Position numbers and translations under genes: made by a program. From positions 1 to 64,000 of the forward strand of contig JAPOYJ010000062.1 in the NCBI GenBank assembly GCA_026706635.1: 64,000 nt of DNA, in the 5' to 3' direction. This stretch comes from Gemmatimonadota bacterium (GTDB lineage: Bacteria > Gemmatimonadota > Gemmatimonadetes > Longimicrobiales > Gaopeijiaceae). This document shows positions 1,272 through 61,283 of the stretch, piece by piece; the first letter of the stretch is position 1, and every line of letters starts with the position of its first letter. The notes under the pieces are model-generated. The model was given only the letters and a program-made list of their open reading frames with translations. It ran no database searches and was not told where the DNA came from.

Positions 1272-3454
1272 TGCGCCACGAGCCGCGGTCGGCGGGAGAC
1301 GGCTGCCCCACGCTTCGTTGGCGCCATCGGGGGCTCTTGGCACTCGTGGCACCGGTGGTGCTCCTCTCGGCGTGCGGGACGGGGGACGCGGGCGAACCCG
1401 GCGACGCCGCCGGGAGTCCGTCCGGGAGGGACTCGGCCTACGCCGAGATCGTAGCCGAGGAGGACGCGCGCGGCGAGGTCGGGCTTGTGCGTGTGCTGGC
1501 GCACCTGGAGGGGTCGGATCCATGGCTCAGGGCCGCGGCCGCGAGGGCGCTGGGGCGCTTGGAGGACCCTGCGTGGGCGCCCCTCCTTGCCGACCTGCTC
1601 GACGACCCCGACGCGGCGGTCCGGTCGGCGGCGGCCTTCGCCGTCGCCCAGTCGCTGCACGGCCAGGAAGCTGGCGATGTGGTCGAGCTGCTCGCGGCGC
1701 GCGCACCGCTTGAAGCCGACGGACGTGCGCTGGGCTCGCTCGCGACCAGCCTGGGGAGGCTCGGCTTCGCGAAGGCGGAGGAGCGCGCGACGGCTGCGCA
1801 CGCGCTCGTCGCGATTGCGGGGGTGGCCAGGGAGCTCCGGGGCGGGGGCAGGCACGCGGCTCGATTGGGGGTGGCGCGCGGCATCGCCGCCTTTGCCCGC
1901 GGCGGCGGGGCCAGCGCACCGCTCGATCCGGGGATCGTGGCGGCGGCCCGGTGGCTGGCGGAGCTCAGGGACGGGATCGGCTTGGACCCCGAGGGGGCGC
2001 TCGCGGCTCTGCGTGCGCGCAGGATCGCGTGGTCGGTCCTGCTCTGCGCCGAGGGTAGCGATGCTGTCCGGGTGGCGGAGCCCGCCTCCGCCGACTGGGG
2101 TGCGCGGCGCGAGGTGATGGTCGCGTCGAGTCGATGCGGAGCAGGGGGCGAGGCGGCGATCCGGTCCGGCTTGAGCGACCCGGATCCACGTGTTCGGGTC
2201 GAGGCGCTGCGGGCATACGACCGCCGCGTCCGGCCGAGCGGAGGGTGCGGACCGATCCTGGATGCGATCGCCGACCCGGACCCGCGCCTCTGGGCGACGG
2301 CTCTGACCCTGGCGGCGAGCGAGTGTACCGGGGTAGAGCGCGTGCGGCAGCGCTCGCTCCTGATCGCTCTGGCGGACTCCCTGGAGTCGGTTGCAGGGGG
2401 ATGGAAGCGGTCCGCGGGAGCGCTCCGCTCGCTGGCGGCGATCGACCCCGGCGAGGCTGCGGCGCGTATCGGGCCATTTGCGGATCACGGCGATCCGTCG
2501 GTCCGCAGGTGGGCGGCCCTCGCCGCCTCCAAGGCGGGGGCCGTCGAGGCGCTGAGGGAGCTGGGCGCCCCAGGAGAGGATGCGAATGTCCGTGCGGCCG
2601 CGCTGGAGGGTCTCGGAGCGGCCGTCGGGGGCGGAGGGCGCGACCTGTATCTGGACGCGCTCGCATCCGACGATCCGCAGCTCGTCATGACCGCCGCCCG
2701 GCTCCTCGGTGAGCACATGGCGCCGGGCGACGCGGATGCGACCTCGGCTCTGCTGGCGGCCCTCGGCCACTTTACCGCCCGGCAGCGCGAGACGGAGCGC
2801 GACGCCCGTGTGGCGCTCCTCGAGGCGATCGCAGAGCTCGAAGGCTTCGGGAGCGCCGATCTCGACCCCTACCTCCACGACTACGACCGGGCCGTCGCGG
2901 AGCTTGCGGCTAGGACCCTGAGCGCATCCACCGGCGAGTCGCACGCAGCCGCAGCTGTGCCGCTCCCGCGCCTGCCGACCCCTACGCCGATGCAGCTGGC
3001 AGAGCTCGCCCAGGAGCGCATCCGGATCCAGATGGCTGACGGCAGGGGCGAGGTGGTCATCGCGCTGCGGCCCGACCTCGCCGCCACCAACGCGGCCCGC
3101 CTATCGCGTCTGGTCCGCGAGGGGTACTTCGACGGCCTGACCTTCCACCGCGTAGTCCCCAACTTCGTGGTGCAGGGTGGCAGCCCGAATGGCAACGAAT
3201 ACTCCGGCGACGGCCCATACACCCGCGACGAGATCTCCAGCCACGGCCACTGGCGCGGCACGGTCGGCCTCTCGACGCGAGGTCGCGACACAGGCGACGC
3301 CCAGATCTTCATCAACCTCGTCGACAACGTGCGCCTCGACGCCGACTACACCGTCCTGGGCGAGGTTGTCGAGGGGATGCACGTCGTCGACGCCATCCAG
3401 GAGGGAGACACAATCGTGCTAGTGGACCATCCGACTTCGACGACCACCCGATGA
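1271..3454 (+). CDS. HEAT-repeat lipoprotein fused to cyclophilin-type peptidyl-prolyl isomerase
   Basis: The ATG at 1271 overlaps the previous stop (TGATG) and gives 727 aa; the frame stays open further upstream but the lipobox fits this start. An Arg-rich n-region and [14 protein letters not shown] give a lipobox with Cys at residue 35, so the protein should be lipid-anchored. Residues about 60-560 are HEAT/PBS-lyase-like repeats ([49 protein letters not shown]). Residues about 580-720 form a cyclophilin domain ([46 protein letters not shown]) that would isomerise Xaa-Pro bonds in envelope proteins. The repeats probably bind clients or an assembly partner (inference). The stop overlaps the HIT gene start by ATGA. 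Confidence 0.9.
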
Positions 3455-4335: not shown

Positions 4336-4453
4336 CTAGCAGCCCGTGGACAAACCTACAATTCCTGTATCCCTGGCTTCGCTCTGCGTCGCTCTTCGGG
4401 CCGGTAGCGCTGCTACCAGCCCATGCCCACTGCCGGCTGTCGCAAGGGTAGGC
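4336..4453. repeat. Copy of the CTAG-bounded inverted-repeat element, one recognisable end
   Basis: CTAG (4336-4339) is followed by CAGCCCGTGGACAA, the terminal sequence found at many gene ends in this window. Inside, GCTCTGCGTCGCTCTTCGGG and the small hairpin GGTAGCGCTGCTACC match the inner part of the copies at 36.9 kb and 49.6 kb. I cannot find the opposite inverted end, so this copy looks one-sided or decayed. It lies between the membrane-protein start and accA. Confidence 0.6.
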
Positions 4454-10759: not shown

Positions 10760-13700
10760 TCAGGGTTGCGCTCCCCGCCGGCTGCGACGACCAGAGGCGA
10801 CCGCGACCAAGCCCCGGGAGCGGAGCGGCTCACCGACGCCCGACGACGGGCGACGAGGCGCCGAGGCGTAGGGCGGGGGCGGCGCTTCGTCCTCGATCTC
10901 GATCGTGTTCTCGGACTTCCGGAGCGCGCGCACGGTGTCTCCTTCGTCCGTGTCGGCGGTGTCGGCTGGCCAGGTCGTCACCTCGCCCACTAGGCGGTAG
11001 ACGCCAGGCGGCTCGTCGGGAAGGTCGTCGAAGGTGCAGACCTCCAGCTCCTTGTACGTCTCCGCCAGCTGCACCCACCCGGTGCCCTCCTGCCTTTGCC
11101 ATTCGGACCGGTGCACGGTGTAGACGGTGTCACCGTAGACGAACCCATCGAGCGGGAAGCACCCTGAGAAGCTCAGCCCCGCGAGGATCACCTTCCCCTC
11201 CTCGGTGATCTCGAGGTTGTCCCACGCCCCGTAGTCGGCGTGCGCGACCCGCACCTGGGCCTCCTGCGAGACCGAGAGGCCGTAGGGGTCGGTGGCGGTC
11301 ACGGTGAGGGTGGTGCTGTCCCACAGCGACGCCGTGTCGACCTCGACCGGCGCGGTCGTGACCACGCTGCCGTCGACGGACTCGACCTCGGCCACGCTGT
11401 CGTGCTCGGTCGAGGCGGAGTAGGTGAGCTCGTCGCCGTCGGGGTCGCTGAAGTAGTCGGAGACATCGAGGACCACCTTGCTCAGCGTGTCCGGTTCGGA
11501 CTCGCCTTCCTCGAACACTATGAAGAGGTCGTGGACTGGCAGAGTGTCCGCCACCACCGGAGGGTTGACTCCTATCGAGGCGCTCAGACTGTCGGATAGG
11601 CCTCCCGGATCGGTGGCGAGGACCGTGACGGTGGCCGCGCCGCCGCCCGTCGCCACGATCGTCACCTGGGAGCCTTCCGCCTCCGCCGTGGCCACCAGGT
11701 CGTCGCTGCTCCTGGCCGCGTAGGAGAGCTCGTCGTCGTCAGGGTCGGTGAAGAGGTCGGCGACATCCACCACGACGGTGTCGTCGGTGACGAGGATATG
11801 GTCCTCCAGCTCGCCCACGGCCCTCGGGGGATGGTTCTTCAAGATCGTGACCTCCACCTCCAGGGTGGCCGAGAGCCCGCCCGGATCGGTCGCCATGATC
11901 GAGACGGCCACGTCTCCAGATCCGACGGCCTCGATCTCGACCTCGGCGCCGTCGATCGTCGCGACCGCAAGCAGCGTGTCGGCGCTCGCGACCGCGTAGG
12001 AGAGCTCGTCGCCGTCGGGATCGGTGAAGTTGCCAGTGACGTCGAGCGTGACCGCCCTCCCGACCTTGAGCGTCTGCGAGGGTATCGGCTCCACCACCTC
12101 CGGCGCCCGGTTCACCACGGAGACCTGGGCACCCTGGGTGGCCGAGAGTCCGTCGGGGTCGGTCGCCGTGACCACGACCTCGGCCTCGCCCTCGCCGACC
12201 GCGCGCACTGTCATCACATCGCCGGCGACGCCGACCGTAGCCACGTCGACGTCCGAAGACCGGGCCACATAGGTAAGCTCGTCGCCGTCGGGGTCGGTGA
12301 AGAACTGCGATACGTCCTGGGCGGATTCCCCGCCCTTGAAGATCTCCACAGGCGCGATCTCGCCTACCGGTTCGGGTGCCCGGTTGGGCTGCTCGACGGT
12401 TACCGCGAAGCTCTGCTCGACCGACAACCCGCCAGGGTCGGCCGCCACGACCGCCACGGTCGCGACTCCCTCGCCCACCGTCGCCACGCTCAGGGAGGCA
12501 CCCGACGTGGAGACCGCGACCACGCCTTCGTCGGACGAGGTTGCCGTGTAGGAGAGCTCGTCGCCGTCGGGATCGCTGAAGTGATCCGACAGCTCCACCT
12601 CGACGGTATCGCCGACATGGATCTCGGCGTCGGAGATCGGGGTGGAGACGACGGGCGCGCGGTTCGGAACCGTCACGACGAAGCTCTGCTCGACCGACAG
12701 CCCGCCGGGGTCGGTGGCGGTGACGGTCACGCTTGCGGTACCCTGGCCTACGCCCGCCACGCTCAGGGCGGCGCCCGACGCGGATGCCGTCGCGACCTCG
12801 TCGTCGGACGAGGTTGCCGTGTAGGTAAGCTCGTCGCCGTCGGGATCGCTGAAGTGCTCCGACAGCTCCACCCCGACCGTATCGCCGACATGGAGCTCGG
12901 CGTCCGGGATCTCGCTGGACACCGAGGGCGCACGGTTGGGAACCGCCACGGCGAAGCTCTGCTCGACCGACAGCCCGCCGGGGTCGGTCGCGGTGACGGT
13001 CACGCTTGCGGAACCCTGGCCCACACCCGCCACTGTCAGGGAGGCACCCGACACGGATGCCGTCGCGACCTCGTCGTCGGACGAGGTCGCCGTGTAGGAG
13101 AGCTCGTCGCCGTCCGCGTCGGCGAAGTGCCCGGAGAGATCCACCTCGACCGTATCGCCAACATGGAGCTCGGTGTCCGGGATCTCGCTGGATACCGAGG
13201 GCGCACGGTTGGGAACCGCCACGGCGAAGCTCTGCTGTACCGACAGCCCACCGGGGTCGGTCGCGGTGACGGTCACGCTTGCGGAACCCTGGCCTACACC
13301 CGCCACGGTCATGGTAGCGCCCGACGCGGATGCCGTCGCGACATCGTCGTCGGACGAGGTTGCCGTGTAGGAGAGCTCGTCGCCGTCCTCGTCGGCGAAG
13401 TGCCCGGCGAGGTCCACCTCGACCGCATCGCCGATATGGAGCTCGGCGTCCGGGATCTGGCTCGAAACCGCAGGCGCGCGGTTAGGCACGGTTGCGGTGA
13501 AAGTCTGTCTGGCCGGGGGACCCTCGGCGTCGGTCGCGGTGACGGTAATGTCGGCGGTCCCCTGGGAGACTCCCGTCACCGTGAGCGATTGGCCGGAGAC
13601 GCTGGCCGTAGCCACCGCCGGAGTCCCCGAAGTCGCGTCGAAGGTGAGCGGGTCGTCGTCGGCGTCGCTGAAGTACTGGTCGAGCGAAAAGGTAGCCGTC

Positions 13701-13867
13701 TCCCCGATCACCACGCTCTGGCCGGGAATGCTGCCCGTCGCGACCGGCGCCTCATTCGAGTCACACCCAGCCGCCCACAGGGCCGCAGCCAACGCAAAGG
13801 TCTGGAGAGCCCGCCCCGGCTTCGAATCCAAATGTAAACTGTACATGACATTATGTAAAGTATTCAT
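10760..13867 (-). CDS. Large surface lipoprotein with nine Ig/cadherin-like repeats
   Basis: Up to 1035 aa. An export signal ends ALAAALWAAGC, so it is a probable lipoprotein. Nine tandem modules of about 85-91 aa follow (each starting NRAP-like, then VGDTVEVDL, HFADPDGDELSYTATSSDD, VSGASLTVAGVGQGSASVTVTATDPGGLS); the acidic DPDGDE segments look like calcium sites. Modules are 273 bp apart in the DNA. A unique C-terminal domain (about 890-990) has two cysteines, followed by an odd Arg/Ser/Pro-rich 40-residue tail. Probable role: adhesion or scaffolding at the surface (inference). The start is unclear: ATGs at 13867 and 13846 bracket a 13-bp palindrome and neither has a good ribosome site. Confidence 0.85.
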   Translation of the reverse strand: MNTLHNVMYSLHLDSKPGRALQTFALAAALWAAGCDSNEAPVATGSIPGQSVVIGETATFSLDQYFSDADDDPLTFDATSGTPAVATASVSGQSLTVTGVSQGTADITVTATDAEGPPARQTFTATVPNRAPAVSSQIPDAELHIGDAVEVDLAGHFADEDGDELSYTATSSDDDVATASASGATMTVAGVGQGSASVTVTATDPGGLSVQQSFAVAVPNRAPSVSSEIPDTELHVGDTVEVDLSGHFADADGDELSYTATSSDDEVATASVSGASLTVAGVGQGSASVTVTATDPGGLSVEQSFAVAVPNRAPSVSSEIPDAELHVGDTVGVELSEHFSDPDGDELTYTATSSDDEVATASASGAALSVAGVGQGTASVTVTATDPGGLSVEQSFVVTVPNRAPVVSTPISDAEIHVGDTVEVELSDHFSDPDGDELSYTATSSDEGVVAVSTSGASLSVATVGEGVATVAVVAADPGGLSVEQSFAVTVEQPNRAPEPVGEIAPVEIFKGGESAQDVSQFFTDPDGDELTYVARSSDVDVATVGVAGDVMTVRAVGEGEAEVVVTATDPDGLSATQGAQVSVVNRAPEVVEPIPSQTLKVGRAVTLDVTGNFTDPDGDELSYAVASADTLLAVATIDGAEVEIEAVGSGDVAVSIMATDPGGLSATLEVEVTILKNHPPRAVGELEDHILVTDDTVVVDVADLFTDPDDDELSYAARSSDDLVATAEAEGSQVTIVATGGGAATVTVLATDPGGLSDSLSASIGVNPPVVADTLPVHDLFIVFEEGESEPDTLSKVVLDVSDYFSDPDGDELTYSASTEHDSVAEVESVDGSVVTTAPVEVDTASLWDSTTLTVTATDPYGLSVSQEAQVRVAHADYGAWDNLEITEEGKVILAGLSFSGCFPLDGFVYGDTVYTVHRSEWQRQEGTGWVQLAETYKELEVCTFDDLPDEPPGVYRLVGEVTTWPADTADTDEGDTVRALRKSENTIEIEDEAPPPPYASAPRRPSSGVGEPLRSRGLVAVASGRRSRRGAQP
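12408..13500. repeat. Four near-identical 273-bp coding repeats
   Basis: The segment beginning AAGCTCTGCTCGACCGACA (or close variants) recurs at 12408, 12681, 12954 and 13227, exactly 273 bp (91 codons) apart, inside the Ig-repeat lipoprotein gene. The outer modules of the gene are more diverged. High identity at the DNA level suggests recent expansion or gene conversion, and such an array can change copy number by recombination. Confidence 0.85.
13846..13858. promoter_or_regulatory. 13-bp dyad (TGACAT-T-ATGTAA) at the lipoprotein start
   Basis: This AT-rich site overlaps the first codons of the Ig-repeat lipoprotein gene. It has one mismatch from the TTACAT-N-ATGTAA dyad seen at 36850 and 53153, and is embedded in further TGTAAA/TTTACA half sites (13831-13871). 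I infer a protein-binding site controlling this gene; the possible regulator is unknown. Confidence 0.45.
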
Positions 13868-13963
13868 TACACCGGACAGGCTGAAAGTCAGGGTGCTGGC
13901 CGTGGACGCGACGCCACTCGAACGGCGTGCGAGGTCTATCCACCGGGTGGTCGGGGGCCGACA

Positions 13964-17518: not shown

Positions 17519-17757
17519 GCAGTCCGCCGCGGGTACCGGCACCGTAAGCCACGGGTTGTCCACGGGCTGCCGCAGTCCGTGGGCAGACTCGCGCGAGCAC
17601 CGGGAGGGGCGAAGCGCCAGCGGTCCACGGGTACGGGCGCTGTAAACCACGGATTACAAATTGTAAAGAGTAAATTACAACACTGCACAGGCTAGCGAAG
17701 CGGTCCAGCGGGGATGCAGCGCTGCTCCGCCGCGGGAGCTTGTCCACGCGCTGCTAG
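17517..17757. repeat. Compound CTAG-bounded inverted-repeat elements between ssb and the sigma gene
   Basis: Element ends occur in quick succession. A CAGTCCGCCGCGGG end directly follows the ssb stop. A facing end TTGTCCACGGGCTG (about 17557-17570) is followed by CAGTCCGTGGGCAG (about 17573), then by inner sequence matching other copies (GCGAGCACCGGGAGGGGCG; GCGAAGCGGTCCAGCG). It closes with TTGTCCACGCGCTG and CTAG (17754-17757). That last CTAG forms the TAG stop of the sigma gene. An AT-rich TGTAAA/TTACA island lies at 17641-17681 inside it. Confidence 0.7.
17654..17666. promoter_or_regulatory. 13-bp palindrome TTACAA-A-TTGTAA inside the element
   Basis: A perfect dyad in an AT-rich island of the repeat element between ssb and the sigma gene, flanked by further TGTAAA and TTACA half sites. 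It has the same size and half-site layout as the sites at 23854, 36850 and 53153. Function not known; it may be a binding site for a regulator or for the protein that mobilised the element. Confidence 0.4.
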
Positions 17758-18779: not shown

Positions 18780-18918
18780 AGAGGCGACGGCCGCCGGCCC
18801 TTCGTCGCGCCCTGCCAGCGGGAGGCTTCGCCGGTCGCGGTGCTCGTCCGGGCCTGTCCACGACCTCCGGCGCTTCGCCGCCCTCGGTGGTCGCGGAAGT
18901 TACACCACGGACTGCTAG
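18780..18918. repeat. Partial CTAG-bounded element at the end of the Omp85 gene
   Basis: The inner sequence (CCCTTCGTCGCGCCCTGCCAG, then GGTCGCGGTGCTCGTC) matches the right half of the copy at 36.9 kb. The terminal CCACGGACTG followed by CTAG (18915-18918) is a standard right end. The CTAG provides the TAG stop of the Omp85-like gene. No left end is visible. Confidence 0.6.
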
Positions 18919-22588: not shown

Positions 22589-23764
22589 ATGTTCGTCGAG
22601 CGACCCGGGTCCACCCGAGAAGTGCATACCGCCCTGCGCGTACACCCCTGCGCGGCGCTTACCGGGCCTCGGCAGTGCGGCAAGACCACGTTGGCCCGCC
22701 GCATAGCAGCAGACGAGCCCAGCACATATTTCGATCTGGAGTCGGCAGTGGACCGGCGTCGGCTTGATGCGCCGGAGCAGACTCTGGGGGGTCTCGCTGG
22801 CCTGGTAGTGATTGACGAGGTGCAGCGTATGCCCGCGCTGTTCGAGACGCTGCGGGTACTGGTGGACCGCCCCTGGTCCGCTGCCCGCTTCCTGCTGCTC
22901 GGCAGCGCATCGCCCGCTCTGGTGAGGGGCGTCTCGGAATCGCTGGCCGGTCGCGTTGGCCTCGTCGATCTAGGCGGGTTTACGCTGGACGAGATCGGCG
23001 GCGAGTCATGGCGGGAGCTCTGGCTGCGCGGCGGCTTCCCTCGGTCCTTTCTCGCCGTTGCGACGGAGGACTCGGCACTCTGGCGCCGGGACTTCGTTCG
23101 CACCTTCCTCGAGCGCGACATCCCGCAGCTCGGCATCACGATTCCCGCCGAGCGGCTGCGACAGTTCTGGACGATGATCGCCCACTACCATGGCCAGAAG
23201 TGGAACGGCGCCGAGTTTGCCCGCTCCCTTGGCACCGGCGAGGGGACGGCCCGACGCTACCTGGACCTGCTTGCGGGGGCGTTCATGGTCCGGGTCCTGC
23301 CGCCGTGGTTCGAGAACCTAAAGAAGCGGCAGGTGAAGGCTCCCAAGGTATACGTCAGGGACACGGGGCTGCTGCACTCGCTCCTGGGGCTTTCCAGCTC
23401 CGACGATCTGGCTGGTCACCCCAAGCGCGGTCCGTCCTTCGAGGGATTCGTCATCGAGCAGCTTCTCGCGTCTTCGGGAATCCGGGACGCGTACTACTGG
23501 GCGACGCACGGCGGTGCCGAGCTGGATCTGCTGCTGCTGCACGCCGGCCGACGCTACGGTGTCGAGTGCAAGTACGCCGACGCGCCCGGCACCACTCGCT
23601 CCATGCGCGTCGCCCTAGCCGACCTCCGGCTGGACCACCTCTGGATAGTCTACCCCGGCGACCGCCCCTACGACCTGGAAGAGCGCATCTCGGTCGTTCC
23701 GGTGCGCGAGATCGGGGCGTTGGCGGCCAGGCTGACCATGTCAGAGCGCCACGACCATACTTAG
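22589..23764 (+). CDS. AAA-type ATPase with DUF4143 domain
   Basis: 391 aa. Walker A GPRQCGKTTLARR (about 27-39), Walker B LVVIDEVQRMP and sensor segment LLLGSASPALV identify the AAA_14 ATPase domain. A winged-helix-like middle (YHGQKWNGAEFARSLGTGEGTARRYLDLLAGAFMVRVLPPW) and a C-terminal DUF4143 domain resembling a PD-(D/E)XK nuclease fold (GGAELDLLLL...YGVECKYAD) follow. Such genes are common accessory loci with no settled biochemical role; links to DNA handling or mobile elements are suspected. It stands alone, and its TTAG stop merges with the end of a repeat element (CTGGTCCGTGGACAG). Confidence 0.88.
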   Translation: MFVERPGSTREVHTALRVHPCAALTGPRQCGKTTLARRIAADEPSTYFDLESAVDRRRLDAPEQTLGGLAGLVVIDEVQRMPALFETLRVLVDRPWSAARFLLLGSASPALVRGVSESLAGRVGLVDLGGFTLDEIGGESWRELWLRGGFPRSFLAVATEDSALWRRDFVRTFLERDIPQLGITIPAERLRQFWTMIAHYHGQKWNGAEFARSLGTGEGTARRYLDLLAGAFMVRVLPPWFENLKKRQVKAPKVYVRDTGLLHSLLGLSSSDDLAGHPKRGPSFEGFVIEQLLASSGIRDAYYWATHGGAELDLLLLHAGRRYGVECKYADAPGTTRSMRVALADLRLDHLWIVYPGDRPYDLEERISVVPVREIGALAARLTMSERHDHT

Positions 23765-23881
23765 CTGGTCCGTGGACAGATTTCCCAGAGCAGGAGTGGT
23801 GCCGTATCCCCGCTGGACCACTTCGCTCGCAAGTCCTTGCTGTAAAGTATGGTTTACAATATGTAATCCACGATTTACAAT
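23761..23881. repeat. One-ended copy of the CTAG-bounded element with AT island
   Basis: TTAG then CTGGTCCGTGGACAGATTTC starts exactly at the stop of the DUF4143 gene. The following GTATCCCCGCTGGACCACTTCGCT resembles the left inner part of the 36.8 kb copy. It runs into an AT-rich island (23841-23881) with TGTAAAG, TTTACAATATGTAAT and ATTTACAATG, including the dyad TTACAATATGTAA at 23854-23866. No right end is recognised. Confidence 0.55.
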
Positions 23882-23940
23882 GCCAGCACCGGCGAGGTGG
23901 GAACCTCAACGGTGGCAGGGCAGGCACCCACCGGGCACGA

Positions 23941-35154: not shown

Positions 35155-35215
35155 ACGGTTCGTGCTCCGAGTCAAGTCCATCGACAAAATGCACCCCGAA
35201 TCTGGCCACGGGCTG

Positions 35216-36652
35216 CTAGAGCGGTCCGTCGGCCCACGGGCCCCAGATGGCGTACGTCGCGCTCGGCCGTGGCTCCTCGTCTCTGCGGCCTCCCTGCACA
35301 TTGAGGAACATCACCCGTCCGTCGGGGCTGAAGCACGCTCCGGCAAACTCACCCGGCTGCTCGTCCCCATCCTCGTGCGGCGACCTCACCATGTTCACGA
35401 TCCGACCCTCGCGGTCGAGACCCCGAACGTACTGCTCGCCGCTCCCGTCCTCGCACATCACGAGCCCACCCCTCGGCGTCACGACGATGTTGTCGGGGCT
35501 GTCGAGCACATCGTGCGACGGCGACTCGAAGACGAGCTCCAGCTCGCCCCCATCTTCCGAAAGGGGCCGATAGTGGAAGACCTGTCCCGCCCCGGCGTCT
35601 CCCCCGTTCGTCGAGACGACGTAGATGCCGTCGTCGCCGAAGAAGGCCCCCTCGAGGCGGGCGAAGCGGGCGGCGCCCTTGGCCACCCCCTGCCTGAAGA
35701 CGGCCAGACGGTCCGCCTCGGCGTCCGGAGGATCGGGATCGTCGATGTCGACCCAGTGAACCGGCAGTGTGGTGCCGGCCTCCTGGCCCCGCGCCGTCAG
35801 GTACCCTGGCCTCCCGTTGACGGCCATCATCTGGAGCCTTCCCCCGGCCGCGAGCACCTCCGGGTCGTTGGGGAGGAACCGGTATAGGCCGGCGCCCGGC
35901 AGCCTATCGGGCACGTACCAGGTGTCCTCGGTCTCGTACACCACCCCGGTGGCCGGGTCGATCGCCACCGCCTCGTGCACAAAGCGCCCCATCGCCTTCA
36001 GCGGAACCGGATCCACCGGCCCGGTTGCGCCGGTCGGCACTTCGAATACGTACCCGTGCGGCCTGGCAAACCCGGCCTCGGCGCCCCAGGTGCTCTCCTC
36101 GCACGACAGCCAGCTCCCCCAAGGCGTCGTGCCGCCTGCGCAGTTCACGACCGTGCCGGCGAGCGATACGAACTCGTCAACCAGCTCGACCGCGAGGTCG
36201 CCCTCGCCGTCCTCCGAGATTCTCACCTCGAGCGACGTGGTCCCGCCGCTCGCCAGGGGGTCGTACGACGGATCTCCAATCGCCGCCCCGCTGCCCGCGC
36301 CGTCCACCATCTCGTGATTCCGGATCAGGCGTACATTGCCGTTTGGGAGCGGAAACGCGGCCATGCCGTCGAAGGCGTTGGGCACCGTCAGCCCGTCTCG
36401 CACTGCCGACCGCTCGCCGCCGGTGCTGATCCGCACGCACCTGAATCCCGTCGGGATCTCCAGCTCGGAGCACTCGGCGCTCCGCGCCAGCGGGCCGTAC
36501 GGCTCGATGAAGTCACCTAGGCCACGCCTGCGCGTCGAACCAGCCGCCGGCCCATTCCATCTCGCCAGTCCGGCTAGGGAGGGAGCGAGGACTGCGACCC
36601 CTCCGGCCGATGCGAGGCTCCTGAGAAACACCCTGCGCTCCATCGAAGACAT
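35216..36652 (-). CDS. PhoX-family (DUF839) secreted phosphatase-like protein
   Basis: 478 aa from ATG 36652 (36643 is possible). A twin-arginine-type signal (RRVFLRSLASAGGVAVLAPSLAGLA) suggests export folded, with cofactor. The body has PhoX features: IPTGFRCVRISTGGE, NHEMVDG, TTSLEVRI, NCAGGTTPWGSWLSCEES, GYVFEVP, MGRFVHEAVAIDPATGVVYETED, FFGDDGIYVVSTNGGDAGAGQVF and SPDNIVVTPRGGLVMCEDG. PhoX enzymes are calcium/iron-dependent alkaline phosphatases, but many DUF839 members are unstudied, so phosphatase activity is inferred. Its TAG stop is formed by the CTAG of an element end (GGCCACGGGCTGCTAG, 35204-35219). Confidence 0.85.
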   Translation of the reverse strand: MSSMERRVFLRSLASAGGVAVLAPSLAGLARWNGPAAGSTRRRGLGDFIEPYGPLARSAECSELEIPTGFRCVRISTGGERSAVRDGLTVPNAFDGMAAFPLPNGNVRLIRNHEMVDGAGSGAAIGDPSYDPLASGGTTSLEVRISEDGEGDLAVELVDEFVSLAGTVVNCAGGTTPWGSWLSCEESTWGAEAGFARPHGYVFEVPTGATGPVDPVPLKAMGRFVHEAVAIDPATGVVYETEDTWYVPDRLPGAGLYRFLPNDPEVLAAGGRLQMMAVNGRPGYLTARGQEAGTTLPVHWVDIDDPDPPDAEADRLAVFRQGVAKGAARFARLEGAFFGDDGIYVVSTNGGDAGAGQVFHYRPLSEDGGELELVFESPSHDVLDSPDNIVVTPRGGLVMCEDGSGEQYVRGLDREGRIVNMVRSPHEDGDEQPGEFAGACFSPDGRVMFLNVQGGRRDEEPRPSATYAIWGPWADGPL

Positions 36653-36677: not shown

Positions 36678-36700
36678 CCAGCAGTCCGTGGATAATCTCG
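36678..36700. repeat. Isolated element end CCCAGCAGTCCGTGGATAATC
   Basis: A left-type terminal sequence just upstream of the PhoX-like gene, identical over CAGTCCGTGGATAATCTCGC to the one at 44821. The bounding tetranucleotide is changed (CCAG rather than CTAG) and no matching right end is seen nearby, so it is probably a remnant. Confidence 0.55.
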
Positions 36701-36755
36701 CACGGTCAGTGCCGCTGCCTCCTAAGGCTGTGGGGGTCCGCGCACCGGGGCAAGC

Positions 36756-37009
36756 CTAGCAGCCCGTGGACAAAATCCCCCCGGCATTCGAACGGCGATG
36801 CATCCGCGCTGGCCGCTTCGCTTCACCGGTCCACGGTGTAAAGAATACATTACATCATGTAATGTCCGCTATACATTTTGCCACTCCCAAGGCTGCGCTC
36901 TGCGTTGCTCCTCGGGAGAATAGCGCCGCTATTCTCCCTTCGTCGCGCCTTGCCAGCCCGGCGCCTCGCCGCTCTCGGTGCTCGCGGGGCTCTATCCACG
37001 GACTGCTAG
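36756..37009. repeat. Complete CTAG-bounded inverted-repeat element (reference copy)
   Basis: 254 bp. CTAG, then CAGCCCGTGGACAA at the left; TATCCACGGACTG, then CTAG at the right, so the ends are inverted and the CTAG is repeated. The inside has a left arm GCATTCGAACGGCGATGCAT, an AT island with a TTACATCATGTAA dyad (36850) and a small hairpin GAATAGCGCCGCTATTC followed by CTTCGTCGCGCCTTGCCAG. There is no open reading frame of note. The structure is that of a non-autonomous mobile repeat (MITE); an IS5-type transposase using a YTAR target would fit, as an inference. Confidence 0.75.
36850..36862. promoter_or_regulatory. Perfect palindrome TTACAT-C-ATGTAA inside the complete element
   Basis: The palindrome extends to CATTACATCATGTAATG (17 bp, perfect). 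It sits in the AT-rich island of the mobile repeat, among TGTAAAG and ATACATT sequences. The same dyad stands in the promoter region of the hydrolase gene at 53153. Confidence 0.5.
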
Positions 37010-37156
37010 CCATGTTTCCCAATGGCGGCATTGCGTTTACATTGGCGTCCAGGTTGCCGACGCGGCCTCTTCGCGCGCTGCGACGGACGGGGGCATCGAC
37101 GACAGAGGCGGCATCGGGCCGCCATGCGCCCCCGCACCCTCATCGAGGCGAACTGC

Positions 37157-37516
37157 ATGGATATTGAGATCGGTTGGTCGAGAGACTCGGGAGTCCTGGT
37201 TGCGAAGCCCGTCGGTCGCGTCTACAGCGCCCACTACATCGAGTGGCAGGCGGCGCTGATGTCGGGAATCGAGCCGGACGACCGCGCCATGGTGCTGGAC
37301 TGCGAAGAGGTCACGTACCTGAGCAGCGCCGGCCTGAGAGTCGTGCTCGAGACCTCGCAGCGATTCGAGGGACCTGGGCGCGCCTTCGCGCTCAGCCGGC
37401 CGACGAAGGGCGTCCGCAAGGTGCTCGCGGCAAGCGGCTTCGACAAGATCCTCCCGGTCTTCGACTCCGCCGACAAGGCGATCCAGGCCGTCGGCGAGCA
37501 GGCCGCCGCCAGCTAG
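37157..37516 (+). CDS. STAS-domain protein, anti-sigma factor antagonist type
   Basis: 119 aa from ATG 37157. It matches SpoIIAA/RsbV-like STAS domains: an N-terminal strand pair (GVLVAKPVGRVYSAHYIEWQAALMSGI), VLDCEEVTYLSSAGLRVVLETSQRF with the Ser-Ser-Ala-Gly-Leu motif whose first or second serine is phosphorylated in relatives, and SGFDKILPVFDSADKAIQAV. In known systems the unphosphorylated form releases a sigma factor from an anti-sigma kinase; no kinase or phosphatase lies nearby. The TAG stop lies in the left end (CTAGCAGCCCGCGGAC) of a repeat element. Confidence 0.88.
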   Translation: MDIEIGWSRDSGVLVAKPVGRVYSAHYIEWQAALMSGIEPDDRAMVLDCEEVTYLSSAGLRVVLETSQRFEGPGRAFALSRPTKGVRKVLAASGFDKILPVFDSADKAIQAVGEQAAAS

Positions 37517-37671
37517 CAGCCCGCGGACACGGCGCACCCGCGCAGCCGCTTTGGGAACGCCTAGCTCGTCCCCGTAGCGAGCCACCGCGGACTGTTGAGC
37601 GCCGGGAACGGCGGGTCGCTCCGCCCGCGGTCAGCCTCGGCAGCCCGGGAGGTTAGCCCACCGGCTGCTAG
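37513..37671. repeat. CTAG-bounded element whose two ends form the stops of two convergent genes
   Basis: 159 bp. Left CTAG (37513-37516) with CAGCCCGCGGACAC is the stop region of the STAS gene. Right GGTTAGCCCACCGGCTG with CTAG (37668-37671) is the stop region of the TonB receptor gene on the other strand. The inner sequence is unlike that of the reference copy, apart from another end-like CCACCGCGGACTG at about 37580. Confidence 0.7.
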
Positions 37672-42125: not shown

Positions 42126-44816
42126 ATGCGAGATGCGACGATTTCACCAGTGAGCCGGTCGCTATCGGTACCGTGCGCCCACAGCTGGCTTGCGGCCACC
42201 ATTGCCCTCGCTCTGCCGCAGGCGGCCGTTGGCCAGGGTCCCAGGAGTCCGTGGATGAACCCTGACGATAGTCCTCCACCTCCCACACTCGAGGCCCACC
42301 GACTGAGCGGTCCTCCGCCGCAGGTCGACGGCGTGCTCGGGGAATCCGACTGGCAAAGCGCCGCCGTGGCCCAGGAGTTCGTGGTCTTCGAGCCCGACGA
42401 GGGTGCCGTACCCACCCAGCCGACCGAGGCGCGGGTGCTCTACGGGCCCGAAGCGCTCTATGTGGGGATCCGCGCCTTCGACACGGCACCGGATTCGATC
42501 GTGCGGAGGCTCGCGCGGCGCGACGACCGCCCCCACTCGGACTGGGTCGACGTGGTGATCGACAGCTACCTGGATCGACGCACGGCGTTCCGATTCGGAG
42601 TCAATCCGGCCGGAGTCAAGTCGGATGCGTACATGTTCGACGACACGAACGAGGACGACTCATGGGACGCGGTGTGGGAGGTCGCCACCCAGACCGACGA
42701 CCTCGGATGGACCGCCGAGTTCCGTATCCCGTACTCGCAGCTCAGCTTCGACGGCGCGGTTCGCCAGACCTGGGGGCTCAACTTCGTGCGCTATGTCGGC
42801 CGCCATCTGGAGACGAGCCTCTGGGCACCTATATCGCGCGGCGACGGCGCCATGGTGTCGCGCTTCGGAAAGCTGGTGGGTCTGGACGGCATCTCGCCCC
42901 CGATGCGCCTCGAGGTGACGCCCTACTCGCTGGCCAGCGTGCAGGCGGCCCCAGGGAGCGCCGACGACCCCTTCCACGCGGACCGCGACTTCGCGTCCAT
43001 GCTCGGCGCCGACGCCAAGTACGGGATCACCTCCGACCTGACGCTCGACCTGACGGTGAATCCGGACTTCGGGCAGGTGGAGGCCGACCCGGCCCGGGTC
43101 AACCTAAGCGCCTTCGAGACCTTCCTCGACGAGCGGCGCCCATTCTTCGTCGAGGGGGCGAACATCTTCGCCTTCGGCTTCTCGCCGGGTGACGACGGCG
43201 AGGACGAGGGCCTATTCTATTCGCGGAGGATCGGCAGGGCCCCTCGGGGAGCGGCATCGGGCGCGGCCTACGCCGATGTGCCCCGTCAGACCCGGATCCT
43301 CGGGGCGCTCAAGCTGTCGGGGAAGACAGACTCCGGGTGGTCGCTCGGGCTTCTGCACGCCGTCACCCGCCGGGAGGATGCCCGGCTGGCCGACGCCAGC
43401 GCGGGGCGCCTGGAGGACCAGCTCGTGGAGCCCTCGGCGCACTACGGAGTGGCGAGGGCAATAAAGGACCTCCGTGGCGGCCGGAGCGCGGTCGGCCTCA
43501 TCTCCACCTGGAGCCGGCGCGATGCCGCGGCCGCCGAGGAGCTGGCGATCCACTCCGATGCCTATGCCTTTGGCGCGGATGGTCGGCACCGATTCGGAGG
43601 CGACCGGTTCGTGCTCAGGGCCTATCTGCTGGGCTCGACGGTTCGAGGTTCGGCAGCGGCGATCGAACGAACGCAGAGATCCCCGGCACGCTACTTCCAG
43701 CGCCCCGACGCCGATCACCTCGAGCTCGACCCCACGCGGAGCTCGCTCAGCGGATGGGCGGCGTCGACGATGTTCGGCAAGATCTCCGGCGGGTACTGGC
43801 GCTTCGCGGCGGGCGCCATGGCCCGTTCACCCGGATTCGATGCGAACGACCTGGGGTTCATGCGCGAAACCGACTTTGTGTCGCCCTACATCTGGATCGG
43901 ATTCCAGCACTACCGGCCGAGCGGCCCCTTTCAGCGCTGGAATGTGAACCTGAATGGCTGGATGCCCCGGAGTCTGGGCGGCGACCGCTACCAGATGGGC
44001 GGCAACATCAACGGGAACTTCACCCTTAGGAGCTTCTGGCGCGCCTACGCGGGGGTGAGGGCCACCAGCTGGGGACTGAGCAACACGGCGCTCCGAGGCG
44101 GGCCGCTCCTGCGGGTGGACCCGTCGGCGGGCGGCTGGCTTGGTTTCGGGTCCGACTACCGCAAGGACCTGCAGCTCCGGGTCGGTGGCAACTGGGGGAT
44201 TACGGCTGCGTCGGACTCGAGGCGCTACGGAGTCAACGCCACTTTGAGGTGGCGGCCCTCGTCGCGGGCAACGCTTGCGGCAGGCCCGTTTCTGAACTGG
44301 AGCGAGGAGGGTGCCCAGTGGGTGGGGCGCTACGACCTGGGGGACGCGCACTACCTCTTCGCCCGGCTCGCGCACACGACCACGGGGATGACGCTGCGGG
44401 CGGACTGGACCTTCTCGCCCGAACTGTCGCTACAGCTCTACGCGCAGCCCTTCGTCTCGGCGGGGTCGTACGACGGGTACAGGCAGGTGGTGGAGCCGCG
44501 CGCGGCGGCCTTCGCCGACCGCTTCGCATCGATCGACGTCCGGACCGACGCAGATGGGGACCTCGGTGCCGACATCGATGGCGACGGCACCCCCGAGACG
44601 ATCTACGCGCCCGATTTCAACTTCAAGCAGTTCCGGTCGAACGCCGTGCTCCGGTGGGAGTATCGGCCAGGATCGACCCTCTTCGCCGTATGGTCGCAGG
44701 GGCGCGACCACTACGCCTCCGACGGCGGCTTTTCGCTGGGCAGCGACCTCCGGACGCTGATGGAGCAGTCGGCCGACAACGTCCTCATGGTGAAGGCGAG
44801 CTACTGGATCGGGTAG
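42126..44816 (+). CDS. DUF5916 outer-membrane protein with CBM9-like N-terminal domain
   Basis: 896 aa from ATG 42126, five bases after GGGAGG. A signal peptide ends AAVGQ. Residues about 60-240 are a family-9 carbohydrate-binding-like sandwich (PQVDGVLGESDWQSAAVAQEFVVFEP, ARVLYGPEALYVGIRAFD, WDAVWEVATQTDDLGWTAEFRIPYSQL). The DUF5916 part follows (YSLASVQAAPGS..., LTVNPDFGQVEADPARVNLSAFETFLDERRPFFVEGANIF) and is barrel-like up to the end. Such proteins are common in Bacteroidota and Gemmatimonadota, with no proven role. Its TAG stop is followed at once by CCAGCAGTCCGTGGATAA, an element end. Confidence 0.88.
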   Translation: MRDATISPVSRSLSVPCAHSWLAATIALALPQAAVGQGPRSPWMNPDDSPPPPTLEAHRLSGPPPQVDGVLGESDWQSAAVAQEFVVFEPDEGAVPTQPTEARVLYGPEALYVGIRAFDTAPDSIVRRLARRDDRPHSDWVDVVIDSYLDRRTAFRFGVNPAGVKSDAYMFDDTNEDDSWDAVWEVATQTDDLGWTAEFRIPYSQLSFDGAVRQTWGLNFVRYVGRHLETSLWAPISRGDGAMVSRFGKLVGLDGISPPMRLEVTPYSLASVQAAPGSADDPFHADRDFASMLGADAKYGITSDLTLDLTVNPDFGQVEADPARVNLSAFETFLDERRPFFVEGANIFAFGFSPGDDGEDEGLFYSRRIGRAPRGAASGAAYADVPRQTRILGALKLSGKTDSGWSLGLLHAVTRREDARLADASAGRLEDQLVEPSAHYGVARAIKDLRGGRSAVGLISTWSRRDAAAAEELAIHSDAYAFGADGRHRFGGDRFVLRAYLLGSTVRGSAAAIERTQRSPARYFQRPDADHLELDPTRSSLSGWAASTMFGKISGGYWRFAAGAMARSPGFDANDLGFMRETDFVSPYIWIGFQHYRPSGPFQRWNVNLNGWMPRSLGGDRYQMGGNINGNFTLRSFWRAYAGVRATSWGLSNTALRGGPLLRVDPSAGGWLGFGSDYRKDLQLRVGGNWGITAASDSRRYGVNATLRWRPSSRATLAAGPFLNWSEEGAQWVGRYDLGDAHYLFARLAHTTTGMTLRADWTFSPELSLQLYAQPFVSAGSYDGYRQVVEPRAAAFADRFASIDVRTDADGDLGADIDGDGTPETIYAPDFNFKQFRSNAVLRWEYRPGSTLFAVWSQGRDHYASDGGFSLGSDLRTLMEQSADNVLMVKASYWIG

Positions 44817-44867
44817 CCAGCAGTCCGTGGATAATCTCGCGAGCGAAGTGGTTCAGCCAGCTGCTAG
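44817..44867. repeat. Minimal 51-bp element between convergent stops
   Basis: CAGTCCGTGGATAATCTCGC at the left (right after the DUF5916 stop) and AGCCAGCTG with CTAG at the right (44864-44867). The right CTAG is the stop of the DUF4340 gene. There is no inner part. It is a likely remnant or minimal form of the dispersed element, with a diverged right arm. Confidence 0.6.
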
Positions 44868-45820
44868 AAGAGGTCCGCTAGCGCCTGCTCCACCCTGTCG
44901 GTCAGGACTCTGTGCGCACGGGCGATGATGCGGGTGCGCTCGCTCCGGATGAAGTAGTTCGGCCGTTCGCCCGACTCGTCGCGGCTCACCTCCATGAAGG
45001 CGAGGGGGTCGCCGTCCCTGTCGAGGTAGTCGATCCGGAGGAGCAGCTTCAACGACTCGGCGGGGGGGAGGTCCCTGAAGCCGTCGATCCCAAGCTGGTT
45101 AACGCGCTCCATGAAGTTGGCGAAGCCGGGGTCGGGATCGGTCGCGCCGGGTGCGGTCCACTCGCCGTCGCCCGTCCGCTCCATCGTGCGCTCCCGCCCC
45201 TCGGCGTTCACGACCACGGTGGCGATCCTGTCCCGGGCGAAGTCGTGCAACTCCCGCTCCCGTACCGCGCCCTCACCCCTCTGCAGCGGATCGATGACCT
45301 CGCGGGAAATCACCATCCCGCGGCCAGTGGCAACCTCCATAGCATATCGATCGTCCCCCCCGAATACCGAGTCTCCGACGACCAGTTCCCGCCGCTCGTC
45401 GCCGAAGCCGATGGTGAGCGAGGCATCCGAGCCCTCGATCCCGTAGCTCTCCCGCTGGTCAGGCGACAGCGGGCCCAGGTCGCGCAGAGCCCTGAGCGCC
45501 GCAACGCGGGGCACTACCGCCCTTCCCGCCCACCCCACGGGGAACTCGATCTCTTCGGACGGGTCCGCGACGAGCGTCTGGGTGCCCCAGTAGTAGTATT
45601 CGCGCCCGTCGTCGGTGCGACGCTCGATCGTCAGATTCAGCACCGGGGTGCTGTAGTCGAGAACTCTGAAGTCGGCGGTGTCGCGATCCCACATCAGCGG
45701 AAGATCCCTGGCCCTCTCCAGGACCTCGCCACGGTTGCAGGTGAAGGTCATGAGGACGGCGGCCGCGACGAAGAAGGCGACGTGCCCCTTCAGGTCGGCG
45801 GTCAGGAAGGGGCCGTTCAT
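44864..45820 (-). CDS. DUF4340 domain membrane-anchored protein
   Basis: 318 aa from ATG 45820, overlapping the GldG-like stop by ATGA. One hydrophobic segment near residues 12-28 (HVAFFVAAAVLMTFTC) would anchor it, and the rest faces the periplasm and matches DUF4340 (LTIERRTDDGREYYYWGTQT, LVVGDSVFGGDDRYAMEVATGRGMVISREVIDPL, GEWTAPGATDPDPGFANFMERVNQLGIDGFRDL). DUF4340 proteins almost always accompany GldG/GldF-type exporters, as here, and are thought to act with them; the cargo is unknown. Last gene of the four-gene operon. Confidence 0.88.
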   Translation of the reverse strand: MNGPFLTADLKGHVAFFVAAAVLMTFTCNRGEVLERARDLPLMWDRDTADFRVLDYSTPVLNLTIERRTDDGREYYYWGTQTLVADPSEEIEFPVGWAGRAVVPRVAALRALRDLGPLSPDQRESYGIEGSDASLTIGFGDERRELVVGDSVFGGDDRYAMEVATGRGMVISREVIDPLQRGEGAVRERELHDFARDRIATVVVNAEGRERTMERTGDGEWTAPGATDPDPGFANFMERVNQLGIDGFRDLPPAESLKLLLRIDYLDRDGDPLAFMEVSRDESGERPNYFIRSERTRIIARAHRVLTDRVEQALADLF

Positions 45821-49480: not shown

Positions 49481-49811
49481 CTGCGTTGGTGGGCGAGGCG
49501 TGGTCGTCGGTTCTCGTGATGCCTGCGTACAGCGCGCCGCCCGAACCCAGCGCGAGGTTGGCCGGACGCCGACAAAGCTAGCGGTCCGCGGTTAATCTCG
49601 CCCGCGCACCGAGAGGGGCGCTGGGCTGGGCTGGCAAGGCGCTTCGCAGCGCGAATAGTAGCACTATTCGTGCAAGAAGCAACGCAGAGCGAAGCGGTCC
49701 AGCGCGGATGCAGCGCGCCTCGAATGCCGGGGGAGGTTGTCCACGGGCCGCTAGGCGACCGGCGCAAATCAACCCCGGCCTCCAGCGCCGGGCGTGTCCC
49801 CCCGGAGCGCC
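49481..49811. other. Intergenic region upstream of the exporter operon
   Basis: 331 bases, most of it occupied by the repeat element at 49578-49754. The remaining bases (49481-49577) should hold the promoter of the exporter operon; I see no consensus boxes. No gene is recognised. Confidence 0.5.
49578..49754. repeat. Complete CTAG-bounded inverted-repeat element, second full copy
   Basis: 177 bp. CTAG then CGGTCCGCGGTTAA at the left; TTGTCCACGGGCCG then CTAG at the right. Relative to the copy at 36756 it lies in the opposite orientation: the inner parts GCAAGGCGCTTCGC, GAATAGTAGCACTATTC (hairpin), AACGCAGAGCGAAGCGGTCC and GCGCCTCGAATGCC correspond to its reverse complement. It lacks the AT-rich island of the 36.8 kb copy, so the island is a variable inner segment. 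No coding capacity. Confidence 0.75.
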
Positions 49812-51604: not shown

Positions 51605-53107
51605 CTAGGGGAGCTGGAGAGTGGCGGCTGAGGTCGTCCGCTGAATCCAGTCGGAGAGGAGCTGCATCGCATCGACCGACCACGTCTCCTCGATTGAGCT
51701 GTACTCGCTAGGCGCACCGGTCTCCGCGTGCTGGAAGAGGTGGTTCAGGCCGGGGAGCGCGTGCACCTCGTAGGCGTGGTTGCCACCCCGCTCCAGCGCC
51801 GCCGCGATCGCGCTCAGATTCTCTTCGTGCGGCACCTGCAGGTCCTTCTCGCCTGTCATCGCGAGCACCGGAACCGTCACCCTCTCCAGCACGGCGGCCG
51901 GATCGTGGGTCAGGAAGAAGCGAAACCAGCGATTGTTGACCTGCTTGACCTGGCCGGCGACAATCGCCTCGGCCGACGCCGAATCGGTGACCCCCGCCAG
52001 CTGCAGCTCCTCCTCGCTCGCCTCCGCGAGGGCTCTGCGCACCACCGCCTCGACGGCACTGCCAGCCACCGCTGGATCCGGCTCCTCCCTGAGAAGCGCG
52101 AAGACCTCCTCCTGGCGCGCCCGATTCGCCGCGATCGCCTCCTCGGTCGCTCCCCCGGCGCGGGCGATCAGCTCGCCCTGCGCGATCAGGATTCGCGCTC
52201 CGTCCACACCCGGAGCGGCCATCAGGGCTAGGAAGGCCACATCGGACGACCTCAGTGCCGCCATCGGTGCCACCAGCCCGCCCTCGGAGTGCCCGGCCAG
52301 GCCGATCGCGCCCGGGTCGATGTCGTCGCGGCCCTTCAGGTAGGCCACCGCCGCCAGCGCGTCCGTGGCGAAGTCCTCGGTGGTCGCCTGGGAGAAGTCG
52401 CCGCCCGAGGCGCCCACGCCCCGGTCGTCGTAGCGGAGGACCGCGATTCCGTTCCTGGCAAGATGGTCGGCGAGCACGAGGAAGGGCCGGTGTCCGGCCA
52501 GCGCCTCGTCCCGGTCCTGGGGGCCCGATCCCGAGATGAGCACCACCGCCGGGAAGGGAGCGTCCTCGAAGGGCCGCGTGAGGGTGCCGCCCAGCGCGTG
52601 TCCGCCCTCCGGGTTGGGGAACGACACATCCTCGGTCATATAGGGGTACGGCTCGGCTGGCTCCTGGGGGCGCGATGGCTCGGTCTCCCCCTCCTCGGAT
52701 GGTGCCAGGACGAGGGGCCGGTTGAGGCCCCCCTGGGAGAAGGTCCCCGAAATCGTGGCGCCGTCCGCCCCCATCGTCCCCGTGTAGGCGGCCCCGATCG
52801 GGGACACGGAGATCGAGATCGTGTCGCCGCTGGTGTCGACGGTCGTGATTGGAAATTCGGCGTTGCCCTGGTCGACCGAGTAGAGCACGCCGGAGAGCGC
52901 CTCCTCCTCGGCGCTCAGCACGAAGCGGAGGCGCAGCTGCATGGCACCCAGGTCGAGTGTGCCGGTCCAGTCGCCTACGAAGCGCACCTGGTCGCCGCCG
53001 TCCTCGGCGTCCTGCGCCTTCGTCTCCAGCGGCGCGCACAGTGCCAGAGCGGCCGGAAGGGCTGCCATTCTCGTGGCGTGGCGTGCAGCGGCAAAGGCAT
53101 TCCTCAT
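51605..53107 (-). CDS. Secreted alpha/beta hydrolase with N-terminal beta domain
   Basis: 500 aa from ATG 53107, five bases after GGGAGG. A signal peptide ends ETKAQ. Residues about 40-140 form a lipocalin-like or DUF-type beta domain (FVGDWTGTLDLGAMQLRLRFVLSAEEEALSGVLYSVDQG). The hydrolase domain has PFPAVVLISGSGPQDRDEAL (oxyanion), LRYDDRGVGASGG, nucleophile GLAGHSEGGL, acid region TGEKDLQVP and histidine LPGLNHLFQHA. The catalytic triad is complete. It likely hydrolyses an ester or peptide outside the cytoplasm. A TTACAT-T-ATGTAA palindrome stands 46-58 bases before the start. Confidence 0.88.
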   Translation of the reverse strand: MRNAFAAARHATRMAALPAALALCAPLETKAQDAEDGGDQVRFVGDWTGTLDLGAMQLRLRFVLSAEEEALSGVLYSVDQGNAEFPITTVDTSGDTISISVSPIGAAYTGTMGADGATISGTFSQGGLNRPLVLAPSEEGETEPSRPQEPAEPYPYMTEDVSFPNPEGGHALGGTLTRPFEDAPFPAVVLISGSGPQDRDEALAGHRPFLVLADHLARNGIAVLRYDDRGVGASGGDFSQATTEDFATDALAAVAYLKGRDDIDPGAIGLAGHSEGGLVAPMAALRSSDVAFLALMAAPGVDGARILIAQGELIARAGGATEEAIAANRARQEEVFALLREEPDPAVAGSAVEAVVRRALAEASEEELQLAGVTDSASAEAIVAGQVKQVNNRWFRFFLTHDPAAVLERVTVPVLAMTGEKDLQVPHEENLSAIAAALERGGNHAYEVHALPGLNHLFQHAETGAPSEYSSIEETWSVDAMQLLSDWIQRTTSAATLQLP

Positions 53108-53152
53108 GTGATCCTCCCAGCGGATGAATGGTTATCTTGTGTCAACCAGAGT

Positions 53153-53165
53153 TTACATTATGTAA
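53153..53165. promoter_or_regulatory. Perfect 13-bp palindrome TTACAT-T-ATGTAA upstream of the hydrolase gene
   Basis: Located 46-58 bases before the ATG, a typical operator position. A further half site lies in TGTAATCTGTAGATGACATA. It matches the dyad in the mobile repeat at 36850 with only the central base changed. Confidence 0.5.
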
Positions 53166-53213
53166 TCTGTAGATGACATATCACAGGTAGCGCCACGATC
53201 ATCGGAAGGCTGG

Positions 53214-61187: not shown

Positions 61188-61265
61188 AGGAGGCCCCCGT
61201 CTCTAGGAGGCCCCCGTCTCTAGGAGGCCCCCGTCTCTAGGAGGCCCCCGTCTCTGGAGGCCCCC
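61188..61265. repeat. 17-bp tandem repeat in the lipoprotein leader
   Basis: AGGAGGCCCCCGTCTCT is repeated four times without change (61188-61255) and followed by a partial copy GGAGGCCCCC. It lies between the start codon (61158) and a proposed promoter at 61284-61312, that is, in the 5' leader of the minus-strand lipoprotein. Perfect short arrays like this tend to vary in copy number. Confidence 0.9.
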
Positions 61266-61283
61266 CTGACTTACCGCTGAGGT

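Follow-up and report, generated by a model that had tools for sequence, protein, structure and literature searches.

Correia/NEMIS, ERIC/RU-1 and RUP elements are short, occur in high copy number, form foldbacks and lie mostly between genes, and Correia elements additionally carry a protein-binding site, that of IHF (PMC2229807). MITEPsy1 of Pseudomonas syringae is a MITE of 100 bp with a 4-nt duplication of CTAG or YTAA (PMC3189936). Among insertion sequences, ISPse1, an IS1182-family IS of Paracoccus, was reported to generate a 4-bp duplication (PMC3281130), as does the partner IS presented below, and IS711 of Brucella has the consensus target YTAR and duplicates TA only (PMC2266754). For IS870, the title of a 1993 paper cited in PMC6471742 states that the transposase ORF takes its stop codon from the CTAG target. 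In this study, we analysed a stretch of 64,000 nucleotides (the window) from a 2.81-Mb genome of a sponge-type Gemmatimonadota bacterium (G000) together with 22 relatives (G001 and so on), 23 genus genomes in all. The dispersed repeat of this genome is a real and very abundant MITE family with CTAG-type insertion sites. Very probably, this family is moved by an IS1182-like DDE transposase into YTAR, and its association with stop codons comes from the target motif and selection, with no special targeting.

The 11-mer CAGYCCGYGGA was found 27 times in the window with at most one mismatch (12.7 expected; reached by 2 of 100 shuffles). When CTAG is added to this end (CTAGCAGYCCGYGGA), 164 occurrences (87 + 77) are present in the complete 2.81-Mb genome and none of the reversed control pattern, which confirms that the inverted-repeat ends are dispersed. 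A full-length copy of 254 bp is located at 36756..37009 (+); it covers positions 1-251 of the 251-position search profile, which was derived from one 253-bp copy, and is bounded by CTAG on both sides, as described before (left CTAG-CAGCCCGTGGACAAAATCC, right ...CTCTATCCACGGACTG-CTAG). Statistics of G000 are based on 1.22 of its 2.81 Mb, sampled as stretches (C-coordinates), in which genes were called by our own simple caller (hexamer model). In these 1.22 Mb the profile detected 205 clusters, which corresponds to ~168 per Mb and 2.4% of the sequence; 24 of them consist of the central palindrome alone and have no element arms. The non-autonomous dispersed element proposed in the preliminary description is a MITE family: short, non-coding, multi-copy and with terminal inverted repeats around a 253-bp consensus. 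The family is present in 23/23 genus genomes, with matches in all 22 relatives; same-length copies across them show ~81-93% identity to the window copy 36756-37009, and G014 holds 93 exact ends. Three near-identical copies stand head to tail with a short spacer in G021 (L138:1648-2394), a recent tandem amplification.

The full-length form (253 bp) has an AT-rich centre. In the short form, profile positions 68-134 are missing, as in the window copy 49578..49754 (-; profile 1-67 and 135-251), which has CTAG at both ends. Other forms are end-to-end remnants of ~50-110 bp and composite arrays, the latter recurring at several loci. One-sided truncation is frequent among the copies in 1.22 Mb. In the window, a left end with partial interior has lost its right end at 4336..4424 (+; profile and end search), a right-truncated element lies between two genes at 13815..13952 (-; profile) and a solitary right-type end, CCAG-CAGTCCGTGGATAATCTCGC, was found by the end search at 36678..36701 (+). 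The window also contains tandem repeats, namely several of ~273 bp (11264-13675) inside one large gene (10760-13867) and 17-bp repeats AGGAGGCCCCCGTCTCT with CTAG at the joints (61188-61272). Target-site duplication is evident from CTAG/CTAG borders, seen at 11 of the 42 clusters bordered on both sides, and from a MITE copy flanked by TTAG/TTAG (L147); in old copies the borders are decayed. High copy number, palindromic structure, intergenic location and composite arrays would also suit repeats of the REP/BIME type mobilised by a RAYT (Y1) transposase. However, Y1 elements leave no duplication, and both the 4-bp direct target duplications and the DDE transposase sharing these ends make this origin extremely improbable. 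The right ends of the element and of the partner IS read TTATCCACGG, which is near the DnaA box (TTATNCACA) and may be chance.

A transposase with the same terminal repeats was indeed found, in an IS1182-like IS, that is, a relative of the IS5 type named in the preliminary description. Two sites of the relative G001, a Longimicrobiales MAG (record OX638356.1), have ends TAGCAGGCCGTGGA at a spacing of 1.5 kb, which bound an IS of 1512-1513 bp. The ends of this IS are CTAG-CAGGCCGTGGATAAAATCC and CTAG-CAGGCCGTGGAAGAAGTGG, and L131, with a copy at 1538-3050, is matched by L151 at 100%. The transposase (476 aa) consists of DUF772 (PF05598, 68 bits) followed by DDE_Tnp_1 (PF01609, 46.6 bits). The best NCBIfam match is IS1182 (NF033551; 192.5 bits), which is below the curated cut-off of 270, and the score for IS5 (NF033581) likewise stays below its cut-off (92.6 vs 140). 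Transposase relatives with the same ends occur in MAGs of Gemmatimonadota, Gammaproteobacteria and Rhodothermales; within the genus, long open copies are present in G001, G015 and G005. An intact transposase was not found in G000, where only a decayed piece was detected (C17:21631-22340) and where the MAG may miss intact copies. MITE and partner IS have the terminal 14-17 bp in common, and ends and target coincide in G001, G015, G005 and the MAGs of the groups mentioned. From these shared ends, the IS1182-like IS is likely the autonomous partner moving the MITE in trans. The flanks of the IS relatives are mostly CTAG, but TTAG/TTAG at L164 and CTAA/CTAA at L165; therefore the duplication is a direct one of 4 bp, YTAR. 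The earlier proposal that YTAG-like targets are used and duplicated is hereby supported by CTAG, TTAG and CTAA pairs at the borders. A TA-only duplication of the IS630-like kind, prompted by the GTAG...CTAG flanks of the PhoX site in G003, was ruled out by the 4-bp duplications in L147, L164 and L165.

The transposase ORF has no stop inside the IS. Its frame, checked against the match ends, continues through the last base, the IS ends in TG, and the YTAR target copy completes TGY (Cys) and TAR (stop) in L151, L154, L155, L156, L158, L159, L195 and L196. Thus, YTAR also finishes the transposase gene itself. IS630-family IS were observed at CTAG sites in G001 (L134:2244-3335 and L133), adjoining IS and MITE copies, and their ORF likewise stops on the target CTAG. 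Some copies have flanks with GGGACACAACA at their end, which resembled integrase genes and turned out to be the ends of these IS630-family IS at CTAG.

Eight genes of the window had been described as stopping at element ends, and about six of them do. A composite element occupies the ssb/sigma gap at 17572..17756 (-; profile), whose left end provides the sigma gene with its TAG stop (17754); G003, G014 and G007 lack this element in the corresponding intergenic gap. An element remnant at 18794..18917 (+; profile) has its right end on the TAG stop of Omp85 (18915), and an element with decayed left end (23762..23897, +) lies at the TTAG stop of the DUF4143 gene (22589-23764). The PhoX gene (35216-36643) carries a short end remnant, CTAG-CAGCCCGTGGC, on its TAG stop (35205..35219, -), and the STAS gene (37124-37516) stops in the left CTAG of a ~84-bp deletion derivative (37513..37598, +). 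These five ends match with 0-2 mismatches, and the end on the stop of the TonB receptor (37668) with two. Not sustained were the permease stop at 10691, with six mismatches and no element detected, and the DUF4340 stop at 44864, with three mismatches in the weak right end of a 50-bp remnant (44817..44867, +). This remnant lies between the converging gene ends 42255-44816 and 44864-45820, and the former gene has its stop in GTAG immediately before CCAGCAGTCCGTGG. The ssb gene was said to adjoin an end as well; it stops beside a decayed end, but the stop is TGA, and orthologues in three relatives use TAG.

A stop was called for 961 genes; directly behind it, 74 of them (~8%) have an element end, and 69 of these 74 stops are TAG. 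This count would suit an element that actively prefers stops or gene ends, be it through an extended motif, through DNA structure at 3' ends or through coupling to the end of transcription or translation. As background for the site statistics, other CTAG sites were chosen. Elements with both borders intact fall on 16 stops, 25 intergenic sites and one gene interior, compared with 97, 223 and 542, respectively, for other CTAG sites in the 1.22 Mb. The closeness to stops reported earlier is strong when all other CTAG sites form the background (odds 4.9, p 1e-5). With the background restricted to CTAG outside coding interiors, no significant excess was found (odds 1.47, p 0.28), and none when elements with at least one intact border were counted (odds 1.07, p 0.74). 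A first count, which required an intact border TAG, had given a two-fold stop excess over intergenic CTAG (p 0.0007). It was rejected because stop borders are protected from decay and intergenic ones are not, and the excess vanishes when all borders are counted. With YTAR in place of CTAG as background a weak stop excess appears (p 0.02); CTAG is the fairer background because most intact borders are CTAG. An extended consensus outside CTAG was not found at the insertion sites. Compared with non-coding occurrences of this tetranucleotide, stops are not used significantly more often, and active preference, the settling on stop codons of the preliminary description, is very unlikely. Gene interiors, by comparison, are strongly depleted of elements (odds 0.014, p 3e-16). 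Since the excess is gone against non-coding CTAG, the target motif and the loss from coding DNA explain the stop association, which then requires no particular affinity for stops. In G000, a stop is occupied by 32/116 left ends but by 11/76 right ends (p 0.035), an orientation bias. Away from element genes, TAG makes up ~38% of the G000 stops, which seems high for 68% GC and is similar in other genus members; this high share is not caused by the element.

Most likely, the DDE transposase of the IS1182-like IS binds the ends CAGYCCGTGGAYAAA and moves, or moved, the MITE copies. It would cut a 4-bp YTAR target, mostly CTAG, leaving copies flanked by duplicated CTAG, TTAG or CTAA. Insertions into coding interiors would nearly all be removed by selection, and we infer that selection, and not an insertion bias, is responsible for the missing coding copies. 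The survivors would be those at non-coding CTAGs and at CTAG or TTAG sites whose TAG serves as a stop, where the duplication would leave the reading frame untouched. The frequent seat on TAG stops would arise mainly because insertion there, among few places, does no harm.

That duplication of the target keeps the stop codon intact, as proposed earlier, is supported by the empty sites found in related genomes, although several loci show TAG in place of TGA or a slightly shortened gene. At PhoX, TAG occupies the same residue in 21/22 relatives and the protein end is unchanged; the element end is present only in G000 and G003, and most of the 22 relatives have an empty site. The E2 gene (C8:17596-18855) has the same ATC-TAG, element-free, in G003. 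For locus L148 of G001, the flanks are joined in G004 and G019 with no element, and the in-frame TAG of the neighbouring gene is present. Judged from these sequence comparisons, the element inserted at a pre-existing TAG and left the protein end unchanged. The picture is less clear-cut elsewhere. For sigma, TGA is found in 19/21 relatives and TAG at the element border in G000, element-bearing TAG stops at C13:101655 and C8:10847 correspond to TGA in relatives, and the pdhB-like gene C8:16340-17320 stops ~3-4 residues early at the border, whereas three relatives have a TGA downstream of this point. The sigma and pdhB-like genes in particular would agree with borders that supply stops secondarily, when an element lands nearby and deletions then join the end of the gene with the TAG of the border. 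As a general explanation this is unlikely in view of the pre-existing TAG at PhoX, the E2 gene and the G001 locus; moreover, protein length is unchanged in most TGA-to-TAG cases. Orthologue comparison showed turnover of stop identity at element-free genes too; for this reason, TGA orthologues are not decisive against insertion at an old TAG. The less simple loci may reflect stop turnover or small deletions fusing the gene end to the border. Element genes lean towards a conversion of TGA to TAG stops by the element; no such claim is made, because element-free genes also switch stops and the number of genes in the comparison was small.

A foldback of 61 pairs is common to fourteen full copies from three species, with 96.7% of cells paired. 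Thirteen pairs are changed on both sides, a number as high in 0/500 shuffles; both-side-changed cells amount to 38, compared with 11.6 in shuffles and 0-9 in slid controls, such counts being inflated by the kinship of the sequences. A 3' hairpin supplied by the element had been suggested, and the conserved foldback agrees with it, but it is not an intrinsic terminator: none was detected in the region of the reference copy. This conserved full-length foldback, with its compensatory pairs, together with the excess of left ends at stops, could indicate that copies are retained as beneficial 3'-UTR structures in transcription termination or mRNA protection. The lacking terminator, the many truncated and decayed copies and the location of most copies away from stops speak against such a role, and compensatory changes could also come from exchange between the arms; retention for this benefit appears quite improbable.

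The centre of the element is a double palindrome, TGTMA-N8-TKACA-N3-TGTMA-N8-TKACA. Its 13-mer TKACA-N3-TGTMA occurs at 107 sites in 1.22 Mb (0.55 in approximate shuffles), of which 77 are in elements and 18 stand alone near gene starts. A solo double palindrome without element ends is located in the window at 53139..53197 (no strand assigned), upstream of the gene 51605-53068 (-), and further AT-rich ones precede gene starts in G000 at C15:87526, C25:8907, C30:97318, C12:16186 and elsewhere. The genes below them, judged by eye from sequence only, include transketolase, IMP dehydrogenase, DprA and a YihA-type GTPase. The solo double palindrome looks like a candidate operator. It is tempting to speculate, with considerable doubt, that the MITE might be a vehicle by which an operator for a transcription factor spreads to gene ends, together with a conserved foldback RNA. 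If so, the element could titrate or spread a regulon while being harmless behind stop codons.

A MITE family most likely moved by an IS1182-like transposase into YTAR explains why ~8% of the G000 gene stops touch a repeat, and it provides an uncultured sponge-type Gemmatimonadota genus with a mobile element and its likely engine. A transposon whose target motif includes a stop has a safe place to land in a compact, high-GC genome. For annotators, a warning follows: a striking stop-codon association can come from motif choice and purging. This study newly describes the family together with its likely partner, puts the stop-codon claim to a test and reports the operator-like cargo. In comparison with the IS1182 family of the IS5-IS1182 group (ISfinder; NF033551, NF033581), the partner transposase likewise combines DUF772 and DDE_Tnp_1, but it falls below the NF033551 cut-off, uses YTAR and has the ends CAGGCCGTGGATAAA. 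IS870, as far as the cited title tells, is a different IS; the partner IS described here uses YTAR to form TGY-TAR (Cys-stop), and its MITE also affects host genes. IS711 shares YTAR, but is an IS and not a MITE, and its duplication is restricted to TA. For MITEPsy1 the ends are unrelated (GGAAGGTCTGAAAAAGCC), and the accessible text of its description reports no stop-codon association (PMC3189936). Compared with Correia/NEMIS, ERIC/RU-1 and RUP, the MITE has other ends, hosts and target, and its cargo is an operator-like double palindrome. In summary, this is an ordinary kind of element, a MITE with its IS, that has an unusually visible stop-codon footprint and fits known principles.
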